Shown in pieces: positions 44,606 through 60,465 of a stretch of 64,000 nucleotides of DNA; within the stretch, counting starts at the first letter, position 1; every line of letters begins with the position of its first letter. The translations under genes and the position numbers were made by a program. The notes beneath the pieces are model-generated. The model was given only the letters and a program-made list of their open reading frames with translations. It ran no database searches and was not told where the DNA came from. This DNA comes from Methylacidimicrobium sp. AP8 (lineage in GTDB: Bacteria; Verrucomicrobiota; Verrucomicrobiia; Methylacidiphilales; Methylacidiphilaceae), in contig NZ_LR797830.1 in assembly GCF_903064525.1 (NCBI RefSeq), positions 1,922,001 through 1,986,000 on the forward strand, in the 5' to 3' direction.

Positions 44606-45397
44606 CTAACGTCGCGCCACGGCCGTGTCGCCGACGGGAGGCTTGGTCCGGGAAAGCTGCCCCATCTGCTTGAGCCAAGCCTCGTAGTCGTCGGCCGTGT
44701 CAACAACGAGGAAACCCTTCATGGCGAAATGTCCAACGCCGCAAAGCTGGCCGCATGCGATCTCAAAGCGCCCGGTATGCGTCGGGGTGAACCACATCGG
44801 GATCGTCAGGCCCGGGATCGCGTCCCGTTGGATCCGCATCTGGATCACATAGTAGTTGTGCACCACGTCGCGGGAGCCGAGATAGATGAGCACCGGCTTG
44901 CCCACAGGGACATGCATCTCGTTCATGGTGATGATGTCGTCCTTGGCAGCCGGATCGCTCTTGTCAAGGCCGATGGGATTCATCGCGTCCGCCAGCCGCA
45001 TGTCCCGCCGCCCTAGCCTTCCGTCAGGCCCCGGATAGTGAAAGATCCAACCGAACTGCTGGGCCACCGCCTCCAGAGTAACCGCTTCTCCCGGCCCCGG
45101 CGGGTTGAGCACCCGATTTCCCCACAAAGGAACGGAAAACCCGAAGAGCAGCACCATTTCCGCAAAGATGATGGTCCACTCAAGGTGCTTGGGCCATGAG
45201 GCCTTGAGCCCCTCGTAGCTCGCATGGGGGTTTTTCGCCGCCCCAAAGCGCGCCAGCGAGTAGACAAAGAAGCTGAACCAGATGACGAAGAGGATCAGCG
45301 AAAACCAGAGAATGATCTCCATGAATTCGTCGATCTGCCTGCCATGCTCGGACATGCAGCGGGAAATGCCCGTCAGCTCAAGAAGAAGTGCGAACAC
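44606..45397 (-). CDS. coxB: Cytochrome c oxidase subunit II
   Basis: Subunit II accepts electrons at the CuA centre of the aa3 oxidase. The 263-aa protein has two membrane helices (about residues 28-48 and 75-92), the aromatic electron-entry stretch QQFGWIFHYPG, H180 in RDVVHNYYV, and the CuA ligands C215, C219, H223 and M226 in CGQLCGVGHFAM. No C-terminal cytochrome c domain is present, so this is not a caa3 type. Unusually, coxB is the last gene of the block, separated from coxA-coxC-coxD by three small genes. Confidence 0.94.
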   Translation of the reverse strand: MFALLLELTGISRCMSEHGRQIDEFMEIILWFSLILFVIWFSFFVYSLARFGAAKNPHASYEGLKASWPKHLEWTIIFAEMVLLFGFSVPLWGNRVLNPPGPGEAVTLEAVAQQFGWIFHYPGPDGRLGRRDMRLADAMNPIGLDKSDPAAKDDIITMNEMHVPVGKPVLIYLGSRDVVHNYYVIQMRIQRDAIPGLTIPMWFTPTHTGRFEIACGQLCGVGHFAMKGFLVVDTADDYEAWLKQMGQLSRTKPPVGDTAVARR

Positions 45398-46536: not shown

Positions 46537-47340
46537 CTAAAGAAGATAGAGGGTGGGGAAGAGAAAGATCCAGACCAGATCCACGAAATGCCAAAAGAGC
46601 CCCGCCACCTCCACGCGGTTGGCCAGATGCTCGGGATTGGTACGATAGAGACTAGCACCCGGTCCCCAGAAATAGCCGAGCACCAGCAATCCGCCGATGA
46701 TGTGCAGGCCGTGAAGCCCCGTCATCGTAAAATAGGTGGCAAGGTACGTACTGTAGCGAGGAGTGAAGTTCGACCACCATTGGATCTCGCTCTTGGGAAT
46801 CTCGAGGACCTTCTCCTCTGCGCCGGAGGCCGGGCGGCCGAACACCGATTGGAGCTGATAACCGAAGCTGCCGGCATTCTCCGGATCCGGGAGAATGCGA
46901 AGCACGCTGCTCTTTTGCGCCTCCTCCGGAGTCATTTCTAAGTGCCCGGTGATCTCCTGACCGTTATTGAGGATAACCCCGTAGTGGTGGAACTTGTCCT
47001 TATATTCCATCGTCTTTACGCAGAGGAAGAGGACCCCGCAGGCCAACGTCGCCCCCAGCCAGCGGCGATAGCTCTGGAACTGGCGCATCTTGAGAGCCGT
47101 CCAGGCCATCACCATGGTGATGCTCGAGGTGATCAGAACGAAGGTGTTGAAAAGCCCCATCGGCACGTTCAGCAGGTGGTGAGGCCAATGGGTCGACCCC
47201 ATCCGCAGAAAGATGTAGGCGGAGAAGAGGCCGCCGAACAGCATCACTTCCGAGGCCAGAAAGAGCCAGATGCCGATTTTTGCGTTGTAGGCGCCGGTAT
47301 CCGGCCGGGCCGTAACGGTATAAGGAATCTCCATTTCCAT
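46537..47340 (-). CDS. coxC: Cytochrome c oxidase subunit III
   Basis: Subunit III stabilises proton uptake in aa3 oxidases. The 267-aa protein has about seven helices with LFLASEVMLFGGLFSAYIFL, MTGLHGLHIIGGLLVLGYFW and VAGLFWHFVDLVWIFLFPTL, the family signatures. An unusual soluble insert of roughly 70 residues (about 123-190, including ITGHLEMTPEEAQKS) lies between the central helices. The start is ATG 47340 with AGGAAG upstream; a longer in-frame extension to 47409 overlaps the end of coxA and is rejected. Confidence 0.93.
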   Translation of the reverse strand: MEMEIPYTVTARPDTGAYNAKIGIWLFLASEVMLFGGLFSAYIFLRMGSTHWPHHLLNVPMGLFNTFVLITSSITMVMAWTALKMRQFQSYRRWLGATLACGVLFLCVKTMEYKDKFHHYGVILNNGQEITGHLEMTPEEAQKSSVLRILPDPENAGSFGYQLQSVFGRPASGAEEKVLEIPKSEIQWWSNFTPRYSTYLATYFTMTGLHGLHIIGGLLVLGYFWGPGASLYRTNPEHLANRVEVAGLFWHFVDLVWIFLFPTLYLL

Positions 47341-47357
47341 CGCTGCTTCCTCTGCGA

Positions 47358-49229
47358 CTAGACGGTGGATGGCTTCGCTTCGGGCCGCCCGCTTTCTTCC
47401 TTCACCCACTGGGGCAGGTAATCGCTAGCAGCGCCCGGAACACTGTATTCGTAAGGCCCGCGATAGACAACCATCGGATGGGGGAAGTTGCCATGGCCGG
47501 GAGGCGTCGGCGCCGCCCACTCCAGGGTGTTCGCCTGCCAGGGGTTGTCCGAATTCACCTTCCTGCCGTGCCAAATGCTCCAGAAGAAATTGATGATGAA
47601 CGGAATTTGGCCTAACGCGAGAATCCAGGCCGAAAAGGACATCACTTGATTGAGCCAGAGCACGTTGTGGGCCATCTGCCAGCCGGCCCCGCCGTCGTAC
47701 CAGCGACGGTGGACTCCGGCAAATCCTTGGATGAGCATCGGGAAGAAGACGCCGTTGAAGAAGATGATCGTCATCCAGAAGTGCACCTTGCCCCAGAATT
47801 CGTTCATCATCCGGCCGGTCGCCTTCGGGAACCAGTAGTAGATTCCGGCAAAAAGGCCCAGGATGGAGGCCGGCGCCATCATGTAGTGGAAGTGGCCGAT
47901 CACGTAGTAGGTGTCGTGCAGGACCATGTCCGAGGCGGTCCAGCCGAGGGGTAATCCGGTCAACCCCCCGATGCCGAACATCGGCAGCCACCCGAGGGCA
48001 AAGAGCATGGGGACGGAAAACCGGATCGACCCGCCCCACAGGGAAAGCAGGAGCACCGTTCCCAGCAAAACCGACGGGATCGAAATGATCGTGGTGAAAA
48101 TCTGGAAGAAGGTGCTGATGCTTTGGCCCATGCCGGTCATGTACATGTGGTGGGCCCAGACGACCATCGAAAGGAATCCGATCGCCAGCATCGAGTAGAC
48201 GAAGGTCTTATAGCTCCAAAGGGGCTTCCGCGTGTTGTTCGCAAACACTTCTCCGACGATTCCCATCGTGGGCAAAATTTGGACGTAAACCTCCGGGTGC
48301 CCTAGGAACCAGAAGAGATGCTGCCAGAGTAGCGCGGAGCCGCCTCCGCTGACCGGCCAGCGGCGCCCTCCGACGATCAGGCCGTCGGGCGAGAAGAAGC
48401 TCGTGCCGAAGAGCCGGTCCATGAGCTGCATGAACGCGGCGGATTCCAGCGGCGGAAACGCGAGGAGCAAGAGAAACGCGGTCACGAGCTCCGACCAGAC
48501 GAAGACCGGAAGGCGCATCCAGTGGAGGCCCGGCGCGCGCAGTTGGATGATCGTGGCGATGATATTGATGGAACCGAGCAGCGACCCCGTAATGTTGAAG
48601 GCCATGCCGATCAGCCAGAGAGTCTGGCCGTTGAGGATCGGATGGAAGCCCATTCCCGTATCCACGATGTCGGCCAGGGGCGGGTAGGAGGTCCAGCCCG
48701 ACTTCGCCGCCCCTCCGGGCACTAGGAAGCTCACCAGCATGATCAGCACACCCGCAAAGAAGGTCCAGAAGCTCGCCATGTTCAACCGCGGAAACGCCAT
48801 GTCGGGAGCGCCGATCTGCAGGGGAACGACGAAATTGCCAAAGCCGGCAAAGAGCGCAGGGACGATCGCCATGAAGATCATCATCGTCCCGTGGATGGCT
48901 CCGAAGGAGTTGTAGAGGTTCGGAGTCATCACCCCGCCCGGAGCAAGGTTGGCCCCGAAAACGGAGGTCAGCAGCGGACCGATCACGGGGACGGGCTTGC
49001 CAGGGAAAGAAAGCTGCCAGCGCATCACGATCATCAGACCGAAAGCGAAAAGGGCCACCAGCAGGGAGGTGATCATGTATTGGATGCCGATCACCTTGTG
49101 GTCCGTGGAAAAGACATACCGTCTCCACCAAGACAACTCCGGATGGTGCCCGGAATGATCGTGCCCGTGGGAGACCCCCCCGCCCTTGCCGCCTTCCGAC
49201 TGTGCCGTCTTGTGCTTCACCTCGTCCAT
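47358..49229 (-). CDS. coxA: Cytochrome c oxidase subunit I (aa3 type)
   Basis: The catalytic subunit reduces O2 at haem a3/CuB. The 623-aa protein has the low-spin haem His in FGAIHGTMMIF (H113), the D-channel entry APDMAFPRLN (D143, N150), E313 and the cross-link Tyr in GHPEVYVQILP, CuB histidines in WAHHMYMTG (H360, H361), and haem ligands in YYVIGHFHYMMAP. These mark an A1-type enzyme. However, the ungapped alignment after HHM puts Leu (L389, in ISIPSVLLG) where the K-channel Lys normally sits (PTGIK). The N-terminus is His-rich (HGHDHSGHH). A 265-bp gap with no gene precedes it. Confidence 0.96.
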   Translation of the reverse strand: MDEVKHKTAQSEGGKGGGVSHGHDHSGHHPELSWWRRYVFSTDHKVIGIQYMITSLLVALFAFGLMIVMRWQLSFPGKPVPVIGPLLTSVFGANLAPGGVMTPNLYNSFGAIHGTMMIFMAIVPALFAGFGNFVVPLQIGAPDMAFPRLNMASFWTFFAGVLIMLVSFLVPGGAAKSGWTSYPPLADIVDTGMGFHPILNGQTLWLIGMAFNITGSLLGSINIIATIIQLRAPGLHWMRLPVFVWSELVTAFLLLLAFPPLESAAFMQLMDRLFGTSFFSPDGLIVGGRRWPVSGGGSALLWQHLFWFLGHPEVYVQILPTMGIVGEVFANNTRKPLWSYKTFVYSMLAIGFLSMVVWAHHMYMTGMGQSISTFFQIFTTIISIPSVLLGTVLLLSLWGGSIRFSVPMLFALGWLPMFGIGGLTGLPLGWTASDMVLHDTYYVIGHFHYMMAPASILGLFAGIYYWFPKATGRMMNEFWGKVHFWMTIIFFNGVFFPMLIQGFAGVHRRWYDGGAGWQMAHNVLWLNQVMSFSAWILALGQIPFIINFFWSIWHGRKVNSDNPWQANTLEWAAPTPPGHGNFPHPMVVYRGPYEYSVPGAASDYLPQWVKEESGRPEAKPSTV

Positions 49230-49494: not shown

Positions 49495-50157
49495 CTACGG
49501 GCCTTTCTTTTCCGCCTTCCCCGCCGATAGATCCCGAAGCTCTTCGACCTTCCACGGCCCGGAATGCCCGCCCAATTGGGCGCGCACCGCTTTTACCTCC
49601 TGTTCGCCGACAGGGGAGGCATGGTTCCCCCACGATTGGCGCAGGAAGGTCAAGATGGCGGCGATCTTCTCATCGGTCAACACCGTCTTCCAGGCGGGCA
49701 TCATCCCGTTGTATTCAGCCCCCGCGACCTTGACCGGCCCCTGGAGCCCTCCGAGCACGATAGCCGCCAACACCCGGGCATCGCCATCGACCCATTCCGA
49801 GCCGGCGACCGGGGGAAACTGGCCGGTCATTCCCTGCCCGTTGGGTTGATGGCAGGCGGCGCAATTCGCTTGGTACTGCTCCCGGCCGAGGGCGACGGGA
49901 TCGACGGCCGCCGGCTTCGGCTCCTCCCCCCCCGGAGCATTGGCCGTCCGTGCGGCGGATCCCGGGGCCGTGGGCGTCCAGCCTGCCAGCAGCCCGCTCG
50001 CATCGTAGACGTCGCAGCGGAAGCCGCCGTTGTACCGGAGGAAATAGGCGATCGCGAGGAGAATGATCCACGATGCGAACACGATAAAGGAACACGGGAT
50101 TCTCTCCCGCGGCGAATCCGTCGGCGGAAGCTTTTGCGGATCGGATTCGTGGTTCAT
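49495..50157 (-). CDS. Membrane-anchored monohaem cytochrome c
   Basis: The 220-aa protein has one membrane anchor (about residues 23-41) and a class I cytochrome c domain with the haem site CAACH at 99-103 (ANCAACHQPNGQGM) and a probable Met ligand in NGMMPAWKTVL. It overlaps the CcoO-like gene by 4 bp and is followed, after a 265-bp gap, by coxA. It could replace CcoP of a cbb3-type module or carry electrons to CuA. The gap to coxA (49230-49494) holds no gene; a 12-bp palindrome at 49428-49439 is probably chance. Confidence 0.85.
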   Translation of the reverse strand: MNHESDPQKLPPTDSPRERIPCSFIVFASWIILLAIAYFLRYNGGFRCDVYDASGLLAGWTPTAPGSAARTANAPGGEEPKPAAVDPVALGREQYQANCAACHQPNGQGMTGQFPPVAGSEWVDGDARVLAAIVLGGLQGPVKVAGAEYNGMMPAWKTVLTDEKIAAILTFLRQSWGNHASPVGEQEVKAVRAQLGGHSGPWKVEELRDLSAGKAEKKGP

Positions 50158-50741
50158 TGGGTGTTGTGCGTGCCGGCTGGCGGTGTTCTCTTAAGGGAGA
50201 GCAGGTACGTCACCAGCGCCCGCGCCTCCGGCCTCGGCACCACCTGAAATCCCGGCGCAGGGGCATTCCGTCCGGAAAGGGGCAAGGCATCGGGCAGTGG
50301 GGTCCCCAGCAGGGGCACACGCGCGTACAGGTACCGGTAGGACGGCATGAGTGAGCCCGGGAAGATCGTCCGCGGATCGTACAAAAGCCGGTAATACCAG
50401 CGGGCATCGGTCCGGCGCTCTCCCACGTCGGCCAGGTCCGGTCCGAGACGGAGCACCCCCAGCGGGACGATGTGATCCTCCCGGTAATCCGAGGGGATCG
50501 TCCGGCGGGAGCCCCAGCCGCGGGCGATATCGGATCCGAGGTTCGCCGGCCGAACCACCTGGGTATGGCAGGAGGCGCACCCGTTGGCCGCGTAGATCCG
50601 CCCGCCCACAGCGGCCCGCCCGAAGGGCGCGCCGCCCGGGGAGGCCCCTCCGAGCTTCGTCAGGGGCAGCCAAACAAAAAGCAGCCACCCCATTCCTGTC
50701 GCCAGGAGGATCCCTAAGAGCACCCCTTTGGCTCCCCTCAC
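50154..50741 (-). CDS. CcoO/FixO-like monohaem cytochrome c
   Basis: From GTG 50741, which overlaps the stop of the CcoN-like gene (GTGA), the product is 195 aa. It has one N-terminal membrane helix (residues 7-28) and the haem site CASCH at 55-59. The CcoO pattern follows: TQVVRPANLG, then RLGPDLADVGERRTDARWYY, then DPRTIFPGSLMPSYRYL with the Met ligand. These are signatures of cbb3-oxidase subunit II, not of generic cytochromes. Its partner gene encodes a CcoN-like protein without haem ligands, so this cytochrome probably serves the ACIII-aa3 chain rather than a working cbb3 oxidase. Confidence 0.8.
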   Translation of the reverse strand: MRGAKGVLLGILLATGMGWLLFVWLPLTKLGGASPGGAPFGRAAVGGRIYAANGCASCHTQVVRPANLGSDIARGWGSRRTIPSDYREDHIVPLGVLRLGPDLADVGERRTDARWYYRLLYDPRTIFPGSLMPSYRYLYARVPLLGTPLPDALPLSGRNAPAPGFQVVPRPEARALVTYLLSLKRTPPAGTHNTQ

Positions 50742-52198
50742 GGCATTCGCGCTCCTTCGATCGCCGCGCCGGAAAAGCCCGCGGGATTTTCCGGGCTCGG
50801 ATTCGCTCCACTTTCGACAAGGAGCCACAGGAGATGGAGGCCGAAGACCGCATGGGCCGCCAGCAACGCGAGCGCCGGAGCCGCTGCGCTCCGCAGGAAG
50901 GGAAGAAGGGAAAGGATCACCTCATGGATGGGAAGCTCGGCGTCATCGAGGGCAAACCCTTGAAAGAGCCCGCCGACGGCCAATAAGCCGACCAGAAAGC
51001 TGATCCCGTAGCTGCTCAACAAAAAATGCGCCTTCGCCAGTCCCGGGGAAGGCCAGGGCCTGCCGAGCACCCGCGGCAAGACGGCGTAGAGCAGAGCAAA
51101 AAAGGTCATGCCCAAAAAACCGTAAAGGAAGAGTGTCAGCTGCGCTTCTTCCAGGACAGTATAGTGGACGTAGCGGCTCCAAGTCGGAAGGGCAAGCAGC
51201 GCCCCGAGCCCCGAAGCCGCCAGGAAAGCCACCATGCCGAATCTCAGGAAATCCCAGCCGGCCCTCCCCTGCCCTTTCTTCGGGGACGGCGCCCGGCGTG
51301 CCGCCTCCCAAAAGCCTAAGCCAATCGCGACCGCCGCCACCCACAGCAGAAAACGGGAAGAGACCCCCGATGACACTATCCAGAGTGGAAACGGCCCCCC
51401 CACCAGATGAGCCATGCCGGCCAGATTCGCGAGAACCGCCCAAGCCCAGAAGGCGCAGCGGCCCAGCCCCGCGAATGCCACCGGTCGACCGAGATAGTCC
51501 GGGACGAGCAGATAGACCGCCCCGAGCGCAAAGGCTCCCAGACCCGCATAGAGCAGCCCGTCGTTAAACCACCACTCGAGCGATCCCATCGCCACCCCGC
51601 GCGCCGCCGGCTCGTGCAGCACGAGCACCGCCGCGCCTCCCGCCCACGGAATCCAGACCAGACCTAGGAGCAGAAATCGGGACGCGAGCGAGGTTTCCTC
51701 CCACCGGCACACCAAGGTGGCGACCAGCCAGCCCGCGGAAAGCAGATAGGCCATCCCGAGCGAAGGCAGGGAAAATGCCGGCAATCCGAGCCAGGAGAGA
51801 GAGCGGCTCTCTCCGGCCAATACTCCGGTGATCCCGCTCCACAATCCGAAATTCCAGAGGAAAGACGAGGCAAGGAACCATCGCTCGCCCAGGAGGGGAA
51901 GCTTCCCGCCCTTCGTGACGGCCCAGAGCGCCGCAGAGAGTCCCATGGGGACGCCGAATCCGTAGACGAAGCCTAAGAAAGCTGCCGGGCTGATCCTCCC
52001 GAAGCTGAGCCAACCCCAGGTGCCCAGAAAGCGGGGATCGACGAGCTTGAGGCTGCCGAGCAGCGCTAGGACGCTGGCCGCCCAGAGCCAGACGGCGGCC
52101 GGAATCATCAGTCCCAGGATAGGGACGCGCAAGGACGATGCCCCGTCCCCGCGCAGAGACTTCACCGGCGTTTCGCCCGATTCCGAAGATTCCGCCAT
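50738..52198 (-). CDS. CcoN-like multi-helix membrane protein lacking haem-copper ligands
   Basis: The 486-aa product from ATG 52198 (AAGGAA upstream) has about 12 membrane helices. It keeps the outline of cbb3 oxidase subunit I: WGWLSFGRISPAA near residue 61, LEWWFNDGLLYAGLGAFALG near 208, VYLLVPDYLGRP, and LLYAVLPRVLGRP near 369. At the places where CcoN has PLHTN, WWYGHN, GPHHLHY and GHVHSG, this protein reads PAAFL, WWFND, GMAHLVG and LEEAQL, so almost all haem and CuB histidines are lost. It cannot be a normal oxidase. Its genes lie between ActF and the aa3 oxidase. A structural or quinone-binding role is inference. Confidence 0.75.
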   Translation of the reverse strand: MAESSESGETPVKSLRGDGASSLRVPILGLMIPAAVWLWAASVLALLGSLKLVDPRFLGTWGWLSFGRISPAAFLGFVYGFGVPMGLSAALWAVTKGGKLPLLGERWFLASSFLWNFGLWSGITGVLAGESRSLSWLGLPAFSLPSLGMAYLLSAGWLVATLVCRWEETSLASRFLLLGLVWIPWAGGAAVLVLHEPAARGVAMGSLEWWFNDGLLYAGLGAFALGAVYLLVPDYLGRPVAFAGLGRCAFWAWAVLANLAGMAHLVGGPFPLWIVSSGVSSRFLLWVAAVAIGLGFWEAARRAPSPKKGQGRAGWDFLRFGMVAFLAASGLGALLALPTWSRYVHYTVLEEAQLTLFLYGFLGMTFFALLYAVLPRVLGRPWPSPGLAKAHFLLSSYGISFLVGLLAVGGLFQGFALDDAELPIHEVILSLLPFLRSAAAPALALLAAHAVFGLHLLWLLVESGANPSPENPAGFSGAAIEGARMP

Positions 52199-52217: not shown

Positions 52218-52640
52218 TCAGCCTGCCGGTTGGGGTTTTGGCGCCGGCGGAGGCGGCTGCCGCAAAAGCGCACCCGGCAGCAGAACGGACGACGGCCCTA
52301 CCTTCTTGCTCTTCAACCGCTCCTCCTCCAGCTCCATGGCCCGCGCGATGGGAATTGCGACCACCCCTTTCTCCCGATCGATCCAACGGTAGCGGCCCAG
52401 CGTCTCGCGATCCGCTTTGCGCAGGGCCTCGAGCCGGCTGACCCGCTCGGCCTGAGCCCGCTTCTCTGCCGCCTCCTCCGCTTGTGTCAAGCTGCGGGTC
52501 ATGAGAAAAACACCGACGACCGGCCAGACGAGCAGAAACACGGCCCACAGGTAGCTCGTCATGCCCGGGAAGCCGCTCCCGCCGCCGGGCCCTCCCGCCT
52601 CCTTTTCGCGCACTCCGCTTCCCGCTGCTGCCTCCGACAT
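52218..52640 (-). CDS. Small membrane protein of the ACIII operon
   Basis: The 140-aa product has a disordered N-terminus, one membrane helix (SYLWAVFLLVWPVVGVFLMT, about residues 29-48), a charged coiled-coil-like part, and a short motif RYRWIDREKGVVAIPIARAM. A similar WVDxxxGVVRIPIxRAM motif occurs in small proteins next to respiratory complexes in PVC bacteria (recalled, not searched). A Pro-rich tail ends the protein. It lies between actF and the CcoN-like gene with short gaps. Confidence 0.65.
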   Translation of the reverse strand: MSEAAAGSGVREKEAGGPGGGSGFPGMTSYLWAVFLLVWPVVGVFLMTRSLTQAEEAAEKRAQAERVSRLEALRKADRETLGRYRWIDREKGVVAIPIARAMELEEERLKSKKVGPSSVLLPGALLRQPPPPAPKPQPAG

Positions 52641-52652
52641 GCAGATCCTCCT

Positions 52653-53861
52653 CTAGCCGATCACGTCCAACGACTCCTGCAACCGGGGGTCACGCCTGGG
52701 GAAAATCTCGCAGGAGACCAATCGCCGGAGGAAGGCGCCCGCCAAAAGGCACCCCATCCCCGCCCAAATGGAGAACTCAAGAACTCCCACGGAGACCCCG
52801 TTTGCGAATACTCCCGGAAGAACAAGCCAATAGAGCTCGGCCGCTTGCATCAACACCACCCACCCGGCCGCCAGCGCGAGCGTCTTCGGATTGCGCTTGG
52901 TCCCCTGCGGAAGAAGCAAGAGAAAGGGGACGAAGAACCGGCCAACCACCAGACCGATGGCGAAGCCGTTCCAGCTCCCCATATTGCGGCGGATGAAAAA
53001 GTAGGTCTCCTCCGGAATGTTTCCGTACCAGATCAGCATGTATTGGCTGAAGGCGAAATAGGCCCACAGGGCCGTGAAGGCGAAGAGCAGCCGGCCGAGG
53101 AGGTGAAGATGCTCTTCGGTCATCTGCGGGAGATAGCCCCTCCCCCGTAGCCAGAGGAGGATGAGAATCCAGAGAGCCAGGCTCGCCCCGGCAGCCCCTA
53201 CGAAGATGTAGCCTCCCCAAATCGTCGAGCCCCAGCGGAAGTCGAGGCCCATCAGCCAGTCGATAGCCGCGAAGGTCATGCAGGCGCCGTAGATGACGAG
53301 GAGGCCGTAGGAGAGCTTCTGCATCCGCACCGTATGCCAGGGATCCCCGTCGCCGTCCTGGCTGCAGGAGCCGTTCCAGAAGAACCAGGCGGCGGCAATC
53401 CAAAAGACGAAGAAAAATACCGCCCGGATCGTGAAAAACGGGAGATTAAGATAGGCGGATTTTGCATGAAGCGCCGGATCACGAGCGAGAGCCGGACTCG
53501 TCCACTCGTAGAGGTGATGTCCCCAAAACACATCCCAGAGGATCGGCAGAAAGAGGAAAGCGACCCATGGGAAGAGGGTGGCGAGGTTTTCTACCTGCCG
53601 TCGCAGGAGCACGCCCCATCCCGCGTTGGTGACATAGTGGAGCAGCACCCAAAAGAGCGCTCCGGCACAAAGGCTGAAGAAGAAGAAGAACGAAAAGAGC
53701 CAGCTATGAAAAAACTCCTTGGGCTGCCACCAGGCACCGCCGAACGATGCGGCCAAGAGGAGCACGCCGGCTCCTTGCAACCACCCGCCGACGGCTTTCA
53801 GGCGGCCCGCCGGAAGGCGAACGGCCCCGCGAAGCTCGGGAGCGCACTCCTTATGTCTCAT
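52653..53861 (-). CDS. actF: Alternative complex III subunit ActF
   Basis: ActF is an integral membrane subunit of ACIII, a quinol:cytochrome c/oxidase oxidoreductase. The 402-aa protein has about ten helices and family segments such as FFHSWLFSFFFFFSLCAGAL, HYVTNAGWGVLLRRQVENLA, WDVFWGHHLYEWTSPAL, TFAAIDWLMGLDFRW, and FSQYMLIWYGNIPEETYFF. It follows actE by 2 bp. Confidence 0.9.
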   Translation of the reverse strand: MRHKECAPELRGAVRLPAGRLKAVGGWLQGAGVLLLAASFGGAWWQPKEFFHSWLFSFFFFFSLCAGALFWVLLHYVTNAGWGVLLRRQVENLATLFPWVAFLFLPILWDVFWGHHLYEWTSPALARDPALHAKSAYLNLPFFTIRAVFFFVFWIAAAWFFWNGSCSQDGDGDPWHTVRMQKLSYGLLVIYGACMTFAAIDWLMGLDFRWGSTIWGGYIFVGAAGASLALWILILLWLRGRGYLPQMTEEHLHLLGRLLFAFTALWAYFAFSQYMLIWYGNIPEETYFFIRRNMGSWNGFAIGLVVGRFFVPFLLLLPQGTKRNPKTLALAAGWVVLMQAAELYWLVLPGVFANGVSVGVLEFSIWAGMGCLLAGAFLRRLVSCEIFPRRDPRLQESLDVIG

Positions 53862-53863
53862 CG

Positions 53864-54475
53864 CTATTTCCCCTCGAGAGCCGGCCGTTCCGCGATAGGA
53901 ACATCGGCAAGCGTTGCATTCTGACTGAGTTGCAAGGCTCGGATATAGGCGACGATAGCCCAGCGCTCTTCCACGCTCAGGTTGGCACCGTACCCCAGCA
54001 TCAGCCCCTGGCCATGGGTGATGACATAGAAGATCTGGCCGTCAGGCATCTGCCGGGTGTGGTCGGAATGATAGTTCGGCACTCCGACAAGCCCGTACTG
54101 GGTCGCAATGCCGTTTCCCATTCCGGTCGCCCCGTGGCAGGCGCTGCAAAAGATCTCGAAGCGTTCCTTCCCCTTCTTCATGGTTTCGGCGTTCACGGGA
54201 ATGGGGATGCCATCGCCCCAGTAATCGCCAATCATTCCGGTGCTCAGGTAAGGACGATCGACCGGATCAACGGTCGGCACCGTGCCCGCGACGGGATACC
54301 GGCTCGCCCGGCCGTCCGGGAAGAAGAGGCTCGGGGCCTGCTCCTTTACTTTGGCCTGTCGCACCATGTCGGGAAAGATCTCGATCGGGCTCCGCGTCGT
54401 CTTGGTGCCGCGGAACCCGGTCACGCTGACGACCGCAAAGACCAGGCAGGCGATGAACAAGAGGAAGGTGCGCAT
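53864..54475 (-). CDS. actE: Alternative complex III monohaem cytochrome c subunit ActE
   Basis: ActE is a monohaem cytochrome c that passes electrons from ACIII to the oxidase. The 203-aa protein has an N-terminal anchor (residues 2-20), the segment PIPVNAETMKKGKERFEIFC leading to the haem site C110-H114 (CSACHGATGMGNG), and a probable Met ligand in QGLMLGYG. It sits between actCD and actF. Confidence 0.92.
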   Translation of the reverse strand: MRTFLLFIACLVFAVVSVTGFRGTKTTRSPIEIFPDMVRQAKVKEQAPSLFFPDGRASRYPVAGTVPTVDPVDRPYLSTGMIGDYWGDGIPIPVNAETMKKGKERFEIFCSACHGATGMGNGIATQYGLVGVPNYHSDHTRQMPDGQIFYVITHGQGLMLGYGANLSVEERWAIVAYIRALQLSQNATLADVPIAERPALEGK

Positions 54476-54488
54476 GATCCCGAACGGC

Positions 54489-56507
54489 CTATCGCGGAAT
54501 ATAGGTGATTTGTTTCCCTCCCAAGCGCTCCAGGAATTGCCAGCTCTCCAGCGGTGAGAAAGCGGGATCCCGGGCTTCGATCACCAGAAAAAATCCATCG
54601 TCGGTCGCCCGCCGAGAGAGTTCCTGCCAATTCCACACCGGATGATGCGGTCGCGGGAGACGGGAGAGAAGTACGGCCGCCAAAAAGGCGCTGAACGCGG
54701 CAAAAAGAATGGTCATCTCCAACAATATGGGGACGAAGGCGGGGAGGCTGAAATAGGGCTTTCCTTGGACGACGGTCGCGTAAAAGAGGCCCTGCAGCTG
54801 GCTCGTCGTCCGGCTGTGGAGGAATGCCGGCCGCGGAATCGAGGTGGCCGTCACCATGGCCAGACCGATCAAAAGACCGAGCAAACCTCCCATAAGCACG
54901 AAGAAGGAAACGCGGGACTTGGGAAGGTGCATGGCCCGATCCATTCCGTGAATCGGATGGGGCGCATAGGCGTCCCACCAGACGTATCCCTTCCGCCGGG
55001 TCTCCTCGCTCGCTCTCCGCAGCTCCTCTTCGGAAGAAAACTCGGCTCCCAATCCGTAGATCTCGCCTCGCGGGGGTCGCATCGCCTGCCGAGGCTCCGG
55101 CTCGGGTATCCGCCGGCGCCGCGGCCCGCTCAGCAGGGTCTTGATCTCGGCGATCGAAATCGCAGGCAAGACCCGAAGAAAGAGCAGGAAAAGGAAGAAA
55201 AAGAGGCCGACGCTTCCGAAGAAGAGCCCCCAATCCACCCAGGTCGGCAGATAGTGGCGCCAGGAGGAGGGCAGAAAGTCCCGCTCGAGGCTGACGATGA
55301 TGATCGAGTAGCGCTCGAACCACATGCCCACGTTGATGAGTATCGAAGCCGTCCAGAGAATCCAAGGTTGGATTCGGCAGCGTCGAAACCAGAAGATTTG
55401 CGGAAGGACGACATTGAAACCGAACATGAAGAAGTACGTGGACGCATCCGGGCCGGTAATCCGATTCCAAAATGTGTATCGTTCGAAGGGATTGGCTCCA
55501 TACCAGGCCATGAAGAGCTCGATGAGATAGGAGTAGCCGACAAGCGATCCTGTCGCCAAGAGGATCTTCGCCATGTTGTCCAGGTGCTTCTCCGTGATCA
55601 TATCCTTGAGCTGAGGATAAGCGGCCCGGAGCGGCACCATGAGCGTCACGATCATCGCAAATCCGCTGAAGATCGCTCCGGTAATGAAATCGGGCGGGAA
55701 GATGGTGGTGTGCCATCCGGGCACAAGGGTGGTGGCGAAGTCGGTCGAGACCACCGAGGCGACGGAGATCACCAGCACGCTCACCACGCCGGCCAGGCAG
55801 AGATATCCCGCTTCATAGTGGTGCCACGCGCGGAGGGAACCAGTCCATCCCCAGCAGAGCACGTGATAGAGGCGCTTCTTCCATAGGGTGGTCGCCCGAT
55901 CCCGAAGGGAGGCGATGTCGGGAAGCAGCCCGAAATACCAGAACAGGCAAGAGACCGTAAAATAGGTGCCCACGGCGAATTCGTCCCAAAGAAGCGGAGC
56001 ACGAAAGTTCTGCCAGACCGCGTAGGACTCCGGGACCGGAACCATGTACCAGAACATCCATTGGCGGCCGATGTGGAAAAGTGGGAAGACCGCCGCGCAG
56101 AGCACCGCGAAGATGGTCATCGCCTCCGCAGCCCGGTTCACGGAGTTCCGCCACCGTTGGCGGGTGAAGAGCAGGATCGCCGAGATCAAGGTGCCGGCAT
56201 GCCCGATCTCGATCCAGAAAACGAAATTGAGGATCGCGATGCCCCAGAAGACCGGGCTCTGCAGCCCCCAAACGCCCAGACCCGTGCTGATGAAATAGAC
56301 GACAACCAGCGGGACCGCCCCCGCCAGCAGTCCGAAGGCCACCGCTCCCAGCCACCACCAGAGAGGAGCCGGCTTTTCCAGCACGGAGCAGACCGCGTCG
56401 TTCACCCAGGAGGCGTCCCGACCGTTGAGCACGAGCTCGGGACGCGCGAGCATGGCCCGCCCGCTTTCCGCCCGATCGATCGTGTTCTCCACCTTCGGCA
56501 TCTTCAT
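54489..56507 (-). CDS. actC: Alternative complex III ActC-ActD fusion
   Basis: The 672-aa protein joins two ACIII subunits. Residues 1 to about 470 are ActC, an NrfD-like ten-helix quinone-binding subunit (IEIGHAGTLISAILLFTRQR, FHIGRQWMFWYMVPVP, NVGMWFERYSIIIVSLERDF). After a basic linker (SGPRRRRIPEPEPRQ) residues from about 490 on match ActD (DUF3341): EIYGLGAEFSSEEELRRASE, VWWDAYAPHPIHGMDRAMHL, two helices, and FFLVIEARDPAF. ActD is usually a separate gene. The frame is continuous, so the fusion is real in this sequence. ATG 56501 is an alternative start. Confidence 0.9.
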   Translation of the reverse strand: MKMPKVENTIDRAESGRAMLARPELVLNGRDASWVNDAVCSVLEKPAPLWWWLGAVAFGLLAGAVPLVVVYFISTGLGVWGLQSPVFWGIAILNFVFWIEIGHAGTLISAILLFTRQRWRNSVNRAAEAMTIFAVLCAAVFPLFHIGRQWMFWYMVPVPESYAVWQNFRAPLLWDEFAVGTYFTVSCLFWYFGLLPDIASLRDRATTLWKKRLYHVLCWGWTGSLRAWHHYEAGYLCLAGVVSVLVISVASVVSTDFATTLVPGWHTTIFPPDFITGAIFSGFAMIVTLMVPLRAAYPQLKDMITEKHLDNMAKILLATGSLVGYSYLIELFMAWYGANPFERYTFWNRITGPDASTYFFMFGFNVVLPQIFWFRRCRIQPWILWTASILINVGMWFERYSIIIVSLERDFLPSSWRHYLPTWVDWGLFFGSVGLFFFLFLLFLRVLPAISIAEIKTLLSGPRRRRIPEPEPRQAMRPPRGEIYGLGAEFSSEEELRRASEETRRKGYVWWDAYAPHPIHGMDRAMHLPKSRVSFFVLMGGLLGLLIGLAMVTATSIPRPAFLHSRTTSQLQGLFYATVVQGKPYFSLPAFVPILLEMTILFAAFSAFLAAVLLSRLPRPHHPVWNWQELSRRATDDGFFLVIEARDPAFSPLESWQFLERLGGKQITYIPR

Positions 56508-56528: not shown

Positions 56529-59500
56529 TTAGCCGGCGCGCTCGCCGGCTGTCCCGCTCGGGCCCTTCTCCGGCTCACCCGCCTTCGGGAACGACTCGGT
56601 TCCGCCCAGATCGGGATTGGGATTGTAGATGCGCGCTAGGTAGGAAACCCGCGGGCGCACATTGAGGTATTCCAGCACGCGGTAGGCTCGGGAGTCGGCC
56701 TTCCAGCGGGAAACTCGGCTCTCCGGATCGGCCAGATCTCCGAACACGATCGCGTCGGCCGGACATGCCTCCTGGCACGCAGTCCGCACGCTGTCGCGGG
56801 GGATGCGTTGCGGGACGCCGTCGCGCGCCTGAACCAGAGTAGCGATCTTGGCTTGCTCGATCCGCTGTACGCAAAAGGTGCACTTTTCCATCACCCCGCG
56901 CATCCGTACGGTCACGTTCGGATTGCGCTGCATCTGCACGGTCAGCGGGCTTCCCAGCGCCCCGAAGGGGCCCAAGTAGAGATTCCCCACCGACCATGGG
57001 CCTATCTTCTTGGTCTTCAACACGTCGCGCTTGTTGAAATCGAAAAAGTTGAACCGGCGGACCTTGTAGGGGCAATTCGCCGCGCAGGCCCGTGTGCCGA
57101 TGCAGCGGTTATAGACCATGACGTTGAGCCCCTCCTCGCTGTGCACCGTGGCGTTAACCGGACAGACCGCTTCGCAGGGAGCATTCTCGCACTGTTGGCA
57201 AAGCATCGGCTCGGGTATTGTGCGCGGATCGGCTTCGGGACCCGTAAAATACCGGTCGATGCGGATCCACTGCATGATCCGGCCCCGGATCACCTGCCCC
57301 TTGCCTACGATCGGAATGTTGTTTTCGCTCTGGCAGGCGATCACGCATGCATTGCAACCGACGCAGCTACCTAGGTCGATGACCATCCCCCACTGGTAGG
57401 CGCCTTTGGTCACGCCTTGGGTGTAGGCCGGCCCGGGCTCTTTGGCCCCGTATGGGTTGGGATAGATAGAAACTTCCGGGACCGAACGGGCTTCCGCATC
57501 CTCCCGCCTGGCGAAATCGGGCACGGCACGGTATTCCGCCAGACTGCCCTCCCGCACCACTCCCCGATCTCCCGGGTCCGCGTGGGTTTGCGACTGCGCG
57601 ACGGGGTAGCTCCTCCCGGTCCGGATCACGGAAACCCCGGAGGCATAACGCATCGTATCCCGAGTCCGGAGCCGGTAGGCGTTGAACCCGTGGCCTTGTG
57701 CCACCCTCCCACCGAAGGAGCGTCCGTACCCGAGGGCAATCGAAAGGGAGCCCTCCGCGTGGCCCGGAACGGCCAGCGCCGCGGCCTCCAGCCGACGGCC
57801 TCCGCATTCCAGCACCACGAGCTCCGCCCGGCGGAGGTCTCCGCCTCCGGGGGGGAGCCCCAGCTCCCGGGCCGTCCGCGGCCCCATGAGGACCGCATTA
57901 TCCCAGGTGAGCTTCGTGATGAAATCGGGCAGCTCCTGCAGCCAAGCGTTGTTGGCCTGACGCCCGTCGCCGATTTTGGCGCAGGGGTAGAAAGAGAGCT
58001 CGAGGCCCCGCGCGGCGGGCCTGCGCGCCAGCTCTTCGGCAACCATCCGCACCGCCTGCTCCCAGCGTGGCTCCGGAGAAAGCGGGCTAGGGGCGCTTCC
58101 CGCCCAAAAGCCGTCGTGGAGGCACCGCCGCCATGCTTCCGCCCGATCCTTTTCCTCGATGCGGCAGAGTCGGATGAAGCTCTCCTGGACCTTTCTCGCC
58201 GCAACGGGCAACGGCAACAAAGGAGGTCCTCCCGCAAGCGGAGGCTGCGAAAGCTGCGTCGGGCTCGGGCTTTCCGGCGGCCGCAAGGCCTCCGCTTCTC
58301 CGCACAGGGCGGCCAGGACGTCGATCTCCGAAAGCGCACCGTAAAAGGGCAGGATCATGGGCTGGGCGCTTAGGTAGGTCCCATCGGGCGCGAAGGCGTC
58401 CCCCCAGCTTTCCAAGTAGTGAGCCATGGGTGCATGCCAGTGGCTCGCCTGCGCCGTCTCGTCGGCTAACAAGCCGAGATGGATCACCTGCGGCACGCTC
58501 CGCTGCAGTCGCAGCCAATCGAGATCCACAGGCGCGGTGTAGACGGGGTTGGCTCCGAGAATCAGAAGAGCCTGAACATTTTCCTTCCGAATCTCTTCCG
58601 CAACCGCCTCCAGAGGCAGTGCCTCGTCCTCCAATGGAGGAATGAGAGCGAGTGCCGACCTCCTTCCGAAAGCCATGTTCATCGCCAAGGCGAGCAGCGC
58701 CACGGAAGCGGGAGCGTCCCGACCCGCCATAATCAGCGGCCGCTTGGCTTGGACCAGATCCCGGGCGACCAGTTTCGCCCACTTTTGCACCGGCTCTCCC
58801 CAACCCTCTTCCGCCAACCGGCCGAAAGGCTCCAGCTGCCAGAGGCCGCCGGCCGCGAGCTCGCGTGCCACCATGGCCAGAAATGCCGCGTGATCTCCCA
58901 CCCGCAAGGCCAAGCGATGATCCGCGAAAGCGCCCGCGGACGTCAGCCGCTCCTCGACAACGTAGATCCGGTTCATCTCGTCCTCCGGGTTCCGCAACCG
59001 GCGCCGCGCGGCAATTCCCCGGATAGCCGAAGGCCCTTCCTGGTCTCCCGAAGCGAAGTCGCACCCGACGGAAAGAATCACATCGGCTTCCCCCCATCGG
59101 GGAAGCAGAGTGAGCCGTTCGCCGAAAAGCCCGCGGGCGGCGGCCGAACGTCCTCCGCTCCCCAATGGCGAATAGGTGGAGAGGAGGGCTTCCGGATAGC
59201 GCTTTTGCAACTCCCCGCGCAGCCCGGCGAGCGTCGGAGAGACGGTCGGTTCGACGATCACGGCAAGCCCCGCCCCTTTCTTTTCCCGCCAAGATCCGAT
59301 CGCCTTGCCGAGGAACTCGGTGAACCTCTGGCGGCCGGCGGGATAGCCATTCTCCAGAAACCCGACGGCGCGATCCGGATCGTAAAGATCGAGGATCGAA
59401 GCTTGGATCTGGGGGGTCAGTCCCGCATCGGAAAAGAGCCGGTTGGCCTCCAAGTGCGTAGGCCGTCCCTCATAGGTGGTCACGAAGAGAGGGACGCCGC

Positions 59501-59789
59501 CGAAGGCTGCGGGGGCCGCCGTGGCGTAGATCAGCGGCTTTCCCGGCACCACCCATTCGGGGCTCGCCGTGTACGGAACCAAGTGCCCTTCCGGACGGCG
59601 GCAGCCGGTCAAGCCGATTCCGCCGAGGGCGAAGGACGCCCCCATCAGCCGGAGGAAGGTCCGACGGTTGATCGAATCCCAGGAAAAATCCGGTGGCGGT
59701 TCGTTCGCCTTCAAAGAGGAGGGCCGCCCGGCGAGGGGAGGAACATCGCTCCCACGGGTCGCCCGCCGCGTGTTCTTGGTGTCCATCAA
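56529..59789 (-). CDS. actB: Alternative complex III iron-sulfur subunit ActB
   Basis: ActB is the large periplasm-facing subunit of ACIII. The 1086-aa protein has a Tat motif NRRTFLRLMGAS (residues 41-52) and a lipobox-like LTGC ending at C63. A molybdopterin-oxidoreductase-like domain follows to about residue 780; such ActB domains lack the cofactor. A ferredoxin-type domain comes last, with four Cys clusters: CVGCNACVIACQSEN, CQQCENAPCEAVCP, CIGTRACAANCPYKVRR, and CTFCVQRI with CQEACPADA. It lies between actA and actCD. Confidence 0.94.
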   Translation of the reverse strand: MMDTKNTRRATRGSDVPPLAGRPSSLKANEPPPDFSWDSINRRTFLRLMGASFALGGIGLTGCRRPEGHLVPYTASPEWVVPGKPLIYATAAPAAFGGVPLFVTTYEGRPTHLEANRLFSDAGLTPQIQASILDLYDPDRAVGFLENGYPAGRQRFTEFLGKAIGSWREKKGAGLAVIVEPTVSPTLAGLRGELQKRYPEALLSTYSPLGSGGRSAAARGLFGERLTLLPRWGEADVILSVGCDFASGDQEGPSAIRGIAARRRLRNPEDEMNRIYVVEERLTSAGAFADHRLALRVGDHAAFLAMVARELAAGGLWQLEPFGRLAEEGWGEPVQKWAKLVARDLVQAKRPLIMAGRDAPASVALLALAMNMAFGRRSALALIPPLEDEALPLEAVAEEIRKENVQALLILGANPVYTAPVDLDWLRLQRSVPQVIHLGLLADETAQASHWHAPMAHYLESWGDAFAPDGTYLSAQPMILPFYGALSEIDVLAALCGEAEALRPPESPSPTQLSQPPLAGGPPLLPLPVAARKVQESFIRLCRIEEKDRAEAWRRCLHDGFWAGSAPSPLSPEPRWEQAVRMVAEELARRPAARGLELSFYPCAKIGDGRQANNAWLQELPDFITKLTWDNAVLMGPRTARELGLPPGGGDLRRAELVVLECGGRRLEAAALAVPGHAEGSLSIALGYGRSFGGRVAQGHGFNAYRLRTRDTMRYASGVSVIRTGRSYPVAQSQTHADPGDRGVVREGSLAEYRAVPDFARREDAEARSVPEVSIYPNPYGAKEPGPAYTQGVTKGAYQWGMVIDLGSCVGCNACVIACQSENNIPIVGKGQVIRGRIMQWIRIDRYFTGPEADPRTIPEPMLCQQCENAPCEAVCPVNATVHSEEGLNVMVYNRCIGTRACAANCPYKVRRFNFFDFNKRDVLKTKKIGPWSVGNLYLGPFGALGSPLTVQMQRNPNVTVRMRGVMEKCTFCVQRIEQAKIATLVQARDGVPQRIPRDSVRTACQEACPADAIVFGDLADPESRVSRWKADSRAYRVLEYLNVRPRVSYLARIYNPNPDLGGTESFPKAGEPEKGPSGTAGERAG

Positions 59790-59811: not shown

Positions 59812-60465
59812 CTACCGGTGGCAGGCCGCGCAGTTGTCCGACGGCTGGATCTTCGCCGCTTCGATCAGCCGCTTGGCCATATCGACCTGCTGCGACCCGG
59901 CCGGAGGTGTCCAGGCAAGATCGAAAACCTTTTCCTGCGGCCGGACGAAATATTCCGGATTCCGGTGGCAATCCAAGCACCAGCTCATGCTCAAAGGGGT
60001 CTTGTGATAAATAGTCCTCATCAAGTTCACCTCCCCATGGCAGCTGAAGCAGCTCACACCTCGGTTCACGTGAGCGGAGTGATCGAAGTAGACGTAATCC
60101 GGCAACTGGTAGACCCGGGTCCACCGGACCGGCTCCCCGCTTTCCCAACTCTCCCGCAACGCAGCCAGCTTCGGGCTGTCGGCTTTGACCATGCGATGGC
60201 AGGACATGCAGGTCTGCGTCGTCGGCACGTTAGAGAAGCCGCTCTTTTCCACAAAACTATGGCAGAAGCGGCAATCGAGTCCCAGACCCGTTACGTGCAG
60301 GGAATGGTCGAAAGGAATCGGCTGCTCGGGCATGTAGCCGACCCGCGTGTATTTGGGAGTAAAGTAGTAGGCGACCCCGGCAACTGTCAGGGCGGCAATG
60401 ATGAGAATCCCCACGACGATCTTCCCGGGAAGCTCATTGGCCGCTTTCCCGAAGAGATTCGCCAT
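59812..60465 (-). CDS. actA: Alternative complex III pentahaem cytochrome c ActA
   Basis: ActA is the multihaem cytochrome of ACIII. The 217-aa protein has one N-terminal helix (about residues 15-34) and five CxxCH motifs: CRFCH, CMSCH, CFSCH, CLDCH and CAACH. It also has FDHSLHVTGLGLDC and FDHSAHVNRGVSC, which supply distal His ligands. It starts at ATG 60465 with GAGGA upstream and is the first gene of the 16-gene respiratory block. The 172 bp before it reach the tRNA-Met gene and presumably hold the promoter, but no clear box is seen. Confidence 0.95.
   Translation of the reverse strand: MANLFGKAANELPGKIVVGILIIAALTVAGVAYYFTPKYTRVGYMPEQPIPFDHSLHVTGLGLDCRFCHSFVEKSGFSNVPTTQTCMSCHRMVKADSPKLAALRESWESGEPVRWTRVYQLPDYVYFDHSAHVNRGVSCFSCHGEVNLMRTIYHKTPLSMSWCLDCHRNPEYFVRPQEKVFDLAWTPPAGSQQVDMAKRLIEAAKIQPSDNCAACHR

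Follow-up and report, generated by a model that had tools for sequence, protein, structure and literature searches.

Haem-copper oxidases are usually recognised by their conserved ligands. In the verrucomicrobial methanotrophs, all isolates but one are stated to have a cbb3-type oxidase with the genes of alternative complex III (ACIII) directly beside it (Schmitz et al. 2021, PMC8498564); for an ACIII-cbb3 context in other organisms, Opitutaceae among them, the review cites Refojo 2010. The Kam1 genome paper (PMC6688271) ties a gene set to low-oxygen growth via a high-affinity cbb3 oxidase, and the Pantelleria MAG is described as lacking cbb3 (PMC8170126). In other organisms ACIII is known to form supercomplexes with aa3 oxidases (PMC5928083, PMC8552683). 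The locus described here resembles the ACIII-aa3/caa3 supercomplexes known from Flavobacterium johnsoniae and Rhodothermus marinus in two respects: an aa3-type oxidase is encoded after ACIII, and a mono-haem cytochrome is proposed as the electron exit. Between ACIII and the oxidase, however, lies a CcoN-, CcoO- and CcoP-like module that goes unmentioned in those portions of the accounts of these complexes that we consulted. It consists of the same genes as the "cbb3 oxidase next to ACIII" of the methanotroph papers; those papers treat them as a functional C-type oxidase, whereas the encoded sequence is without an oxidase active site.

The window, by which we mean the whole 64,000-nucleotide stretch of DNA that was analysed, comes from a 2.30 Mb genome in one contig that belongs to Methylacidimicrobium and is congeneric with Methylacidimicrobium tartarophylax and M. 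cyclopophantes. Its minus strand carries a single respiratory cluster in the order actA, actB, actC-actD, actE, actF, orf140, ccoN-like, ccoO, ccoP-like, coxA, coxC and, further on, coxB (Table 1), so that actABCDEF are all present in the operon. The original prediction had named a CcoN/CcoO-like pair at 50154-52198, and both genes are indeed there; it had missed a third gene, however, and the module is properly a trio that ends in a one-haem CcoP-like protein. The open reading frame of the CcoO-like gene runs for 224 aa from 50828, but the probable GTG start at 50741 gives a protein of 195 aa. With that start the ccoN stop and ccoO start overlap as GTGA, and ccoO and the ccoP-like gene overlap as ATGA; these junctions suggest that translation of the three genes may be coupled. 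In this genus a single ORF (54489-56507) encodes ActC and ActD as a fusion; other genera have a separate ORF for each. The small orf140 is kept in most loci, including that of genome G008, where ccoN is gone.

Table 1. Genes of the ACIII, CcoNOP-like and aa3 cluster, in window coordinates.
Feature	Position	Strand	Evidence and remarks
CcoN-like subunit without haem-copper centre, 486 aa, columns A-D-A-A-H-Q-T vs H-H-Y-H-H-H-H	50738..52198	-	alignment, Pfam, AlphaFold, omega
CcoO/FixO-like mono-haem cytochrome (CASCH, PGSLMPSY)	50154..50741	-	Pfam FixO, haem motif; likely start GTG at 50741
CcoP-like cytochrome, one N-terminal helix, one haem (CAACH)	49495..50157	-	start overlaps ccoO stop (ATGA)
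orf140, small one-helix protein, conserved between actF and ccoN	52218..52640	-	synteny
actF	52653..53861	-	homology and synteny; no Pfam match
actE, mono-haem cytochrome of ACIII	53864..54475	-	Pfam, synteny, haem motif
actC-actD fusion (NrfD-like and ActD domain)	54489..56507	-	PF03916 at 82-406, PF11821 at 485-668
actB	56529..59789	-	Pfam, homology, synteny
actA, multihaem cytochrome	59812..60465	-	profile match, homology, synteny
coxA, aa3-type oxidase subunit I, downstream of module	47358..49229	-	Pfam/profile matches
coxC, oxidase subunit III	46537..47409	-	Pfam/profile matches
coxB, subunit II with CuA-type motif (CGQLCGVGH)	44606..45397	-	homology, motif

The 486-aa CcoN-like protein matches Pfam COX1 at 68.7 bits, above the curated cut-off, and falls far below the NCBIfam ccoN model TIGR00780 (29.4 bits; cut-off 583). 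We compared seven alignment columns, namely a haem b His, CuB His 1, the active-site Tyr, CuB His 2, CuB His 3, the haem b3 His and the other haem b His; genuine CcoN of the same order reads HHYHHHH in these columns and the window protein reads ADAAHQT. The low-spin haem b pair is thus A and T, the haem b3 ligand is Q, the CuB histidines have become D, A and H, and the helix VII Tyr is A. PAAFL, WWFND, GMAHLVG and LEEAQL, the stretches on which the loss was originally proposed, all occur in the translation and fall within the ligand columns. One histidine, H264 (the former third CuB ligand), is retained, so the claim that no haem-copper ligands are left is true of five of the six ligand His and of the Tyr. 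In congeners the columns are ADAAHQ with T, I or V in the last place; in Methylacidiphilum they are SESSHFV. Because the COX1 and FixO (below) scores pass their cut-offs and the same loss is found in the congeneric sequences and in five Methylacidiphilum genomes, it is not a product of chance or sequencing error. Histidines at shifted positions, which would have spoken against the prediction, did not appear; H195, H264 and H345 are the only invariant His in the family alignment, and therefore no shifted ligand set is apparent. An AlphaFold2 model made from an 18-row alignment (pLDDT 83.6, pTM 0.86) finds its best solved-structure matches in cbb3 subunit I chains, with a TM score of 0.85 to the CcoN of 3mk7 and 8smr (for 8smr_E, 0.85 with an rmsd of 2.3 A at 19% identity), and the twelve-helix haem-copper oxidase scaffold is therefore predicted to be retained.

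The CcoO-like protein matches Pfam FixO at 67.1 bits, above the curated cut-off and under that of NCBIfam ccoO, and it retains both the haem site (a single CxxCH, CASCH) and the Met ligand (PGSLMPSY) that had been read from its sequence. In the CcoP-like protein there is one CxxCH and not the two of a two-haem CcoP. Among decayed operons, the CcoO CxxCH is present in 45/45, and the P gene has its CxxCH and its Met ligand in 44/44 each; the aligned CcoO Met is found in 31/45 and is hence not universal. Three CcoO positions that are fixed in 36/36 intact operons are relaxed in the decayed ones (the Tyr of CxYCH, 19/45; a Thr, 5/45; a His, 19/45), which fits the loss of a contact that would have fed electrons into haem b. 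In family f44 (L140, L141, L142) an extra cytochrome gene matching the P profile precedes the usual one, and its best-scoring copy has two CxxCH motifs. The module thus resembles cbb3 CcoNOP in its subunit I fold, CcoO homology, CcoP-like cytochrome and gene order N-O-P, but differs from it in the missing ligands and in a P subunit with one haem where cbb3 has two; intact relatives in the same slot keep every ligand.

Profile searching found relatives in 308 of the 384 genomes of the class, a number that may include canonical CcoN. We classed 147 genes (80 loci with context, 60 short loci, six earlier loci and the window) by the number of columns kept, and the result was sharply divided: 59 keep 7/7, one keeps 6/7, 87 keep three or fewer, and none keeps four or five. 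Across the 81 loci with context, actF is present in 79 and ccoO in all 81, and the gene order is act-orf140-ccoN-ccoO-ccoP. The decayed copies are full length, without stops, and occupy the same operon place in many genera and families; many relatives hold an intact CcoN in that slot. Superposition on cbb3 structures, inspection of the ligand columns and a survey of ACIII operons had been suggested as checks; the results support a scaffold that derives from an oxidase, has lost the active site while retaining its cytochromes, and is linked to ACIII through its place in the operon. No replacement metal site common to the decayed lineages was found in the ligand columns, and the residues of the former metal pocket vary among these lineages.

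Several individual loci deserve mention. Nine decayed CcoN of family f17 (L106, L107, L109, L193, L195, L196, L201, L203, L211) keep both low-spin haem b His, with the pattern HN[SA]QRYH, and have lost the CuB and haem b3 ligands; low-spin haem b may survive in these proteins. The one gene with 6/7 positions, in G155 (L243:7536-9050), has NWWFARN with a CuB His changed to Arg, possibly a first step of decay or else a sequence error. Genome G373 has an intact CcoN/CcoO pair without nearby ACIII genes (L242, C78) and a decayed ACIII-linked copy on another contig. Finally, a contig filed under a Sericytochromatia MAG (L171) encodes an intact CcoN of verrucomicrobial type, and its placement there is probably a binning error.

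How often the ligands were lost was approached with two trees, both of "quick" quality, and with change counts that carry no direction between intact and decayed. An ActB tree of 75 operons requires 15 changes between the two states, at least ten of them forced by well-supported branches; a CcoN tree made with the ligand columns left out, and flagged for long branches meeting, needs four, of which at least three are forced. It is implausible that six ligands were regained; we regard three independent losses as a safe minimum and ten or more as likely. A Dollo count on collapsed trees gave 17 at collapse thresholds of 80 and 95 alike; it was distrusted because it did not change, and was not used. 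The contrary history, a single ancient loss after which modules of both kinds, intact and decayed, were exchanged horizontally, draws on the CcoN tree, where most decayed CcoN belong to a basal grade and so few changes suffice. Yet even on that tree, long branches notwithstanding, the forced changes stand, with decayed f20 and G207 nested within intact relatives, and the ActB tree asks for many more; we consider a single loss rather doubtful.

Within the genus, omega is about 0.19-0.24 for decayed ccoN and 0.18-0.26 for actF, compared with 0.03-0.08 (about 0.07) for coxA; the one intact ccoN pair gave 0.02, with dS saturated. Decayed ccoN is under purifying selection, and less so than the active enzyme.

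The COX1 proteins of the window genome comprise two of aa3 type, one that is ba3-like in look, one that is NorB-like in look (with a weak ccoN match and an HHYFWI motif) and the decayed CcoN. Of the two aa3-type subunits I, the one outside the cluster is at G000:C1:1811535-1813001 (L002). Canonical cbb3 was found in neither the window genome nor the Methylacidiphilum genomes searched, and no genome of the family reaches the ccoN cut-off. All decayed genomes searched hold another COX1 (minimum two matches), and in two intact ones, G062 and G066, the ACIII-linked CcoN is the sole COX1; this comparison (2/36 intact vs 0/36 decayed) serves as a consistency check only. By raw count, coxA adjoins 26/44 decayed and 6/35 intact copies, but the association is unsupported after phylogenetic pairing (of 10 independent pairs, 9.4 on average were the same in coxA), and a bridge specifically to the adjacent aa3 oxidase is therefore not demonstrated. 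Decayed copies in f20, f16, f35, f3 and other families have no adjoining coxA, and in G171, G181 and G281 the sole other COX1 is the one directly downstream. In G008, of a third genus of the family, the operon reads actABCDEF-orf140-coxC; ccoN, ccoO, the P gene and coxA are jointly absent, its genome gave no FixO match, and it fits the description of the Pantelleria MAG (PMC8170126).

We favour, as a reasonably probable reading, that the CcoN-like protein is a pseudoenzyme, derived from a cbb3 oxygen reductase of the ACIII operon, that now serves as a membrane anchor for cytochromes carrying electrons out of ACIII. It would keep the twelve-helix fold, and since haem b, haem b3 and CuB would no longer be bound in the known way, it would not reduce O2 as cbb3 does. 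We infer that it docks with ACIII, and that it would persist by holding the CcoO- and CcoP-like haem-c proteins physically beside that complex. Electrons from menaquinol would then reach these two cytochromes by way of ActB, ActA and ActE and go on to an oxidase outside the module, most plausibly, in this genome, at the CuA of the adjoining aa3 enzyme and elsewhere possibly through a soluble carrier. The overall pattern is best accounted for if it is the c-type haems that are still required. Extended to the whole class, the idea is that cbb3 was repeatedly turned into a non-catalytic electron outlet belonging to the ACIII subunit set of Verrucomicrobiota, with the haem-copper centre lost and the c-type haems kept; to this we give a little less than an even chance.

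Other explanations account for parts of the same evidence. A membrane fold kept at low sequence identity, around a former metal pocket whose residues differ from one decayed lineage to the next, is what might be seen if the CcoN-like protein served ACIII as a membrane subunit for structure or ion translocation, a shell for stability or proton transfer with the CcoO- and CcoP-like proteins as assembly or docking parts. A purely structural role would need no haem, however, and the haem-c motifs of both cytochromes are present in every decayed operon in which these were found, so that we think this unlikely. That the protein works as an enzyme through a rebuilt metal centre is very improbable. 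Such a centre could, for instance, be a carboxylate-histidine site of E208, D/E213, H264, H345 and E350, and the six aligned members of Methylacidiphilaceae keep these residues or replace them conservatively; but other decayed lineages, whose ligand columns are highly varied, do not share them, no residue pair substitutes for the low-spin haem b ligands, and the genome has other oxidases. Least credible of all is a decaying pseudogene kept only through its place in the operon. Genes of full length without stops, at an omega of about 0.2, in one and the same place in many genera and families and with intact haem-c sites are hardly what such decay would leave, even though the catalytic residues have disappeared, ccoN is less constrained than coxA or the intact pair, and the genes have been lost in the genus of G008.

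In the open-access literature searched we found no description of a ligandless CcoN under selection; the pair is described there as a functional cbb3 oxidase, and not as a characterised ACIII component. The genome that matches Kam1 (G011) carries the decayed module. Judged by the encoded proteins, the cbb3 statements of PMC8498564 and PMC6688271 fail in their present wording for Methylacidiphilum and Methylacidimicrobium; as some other lineages do have the intact form, the statements may be correct there. The presence in ACIII operons of a cbb3-derived module without oxidase ligands is confirmed and is broader than first noted, and the original suggestion of an electron bridge or supercomplex organiser is plausible and only partly supported. 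What emerges is a catalytic subunit that has been kept under selection after losing its metal centre, probably many times over. This bears on the unsettled question of how electrons get from ACIII to its oxidase (F. johnsoniae can do without ActE, PMC8552683), and it corrects physiology that was based on annotation, both for low-oxygen growth of Kam1 via cbb3 and for the presence of cbb3 in almost all verrucomicrobial methanotroph isolates. Sister lineages, some with the intact and some with the decayed form, provide a natural comparison.
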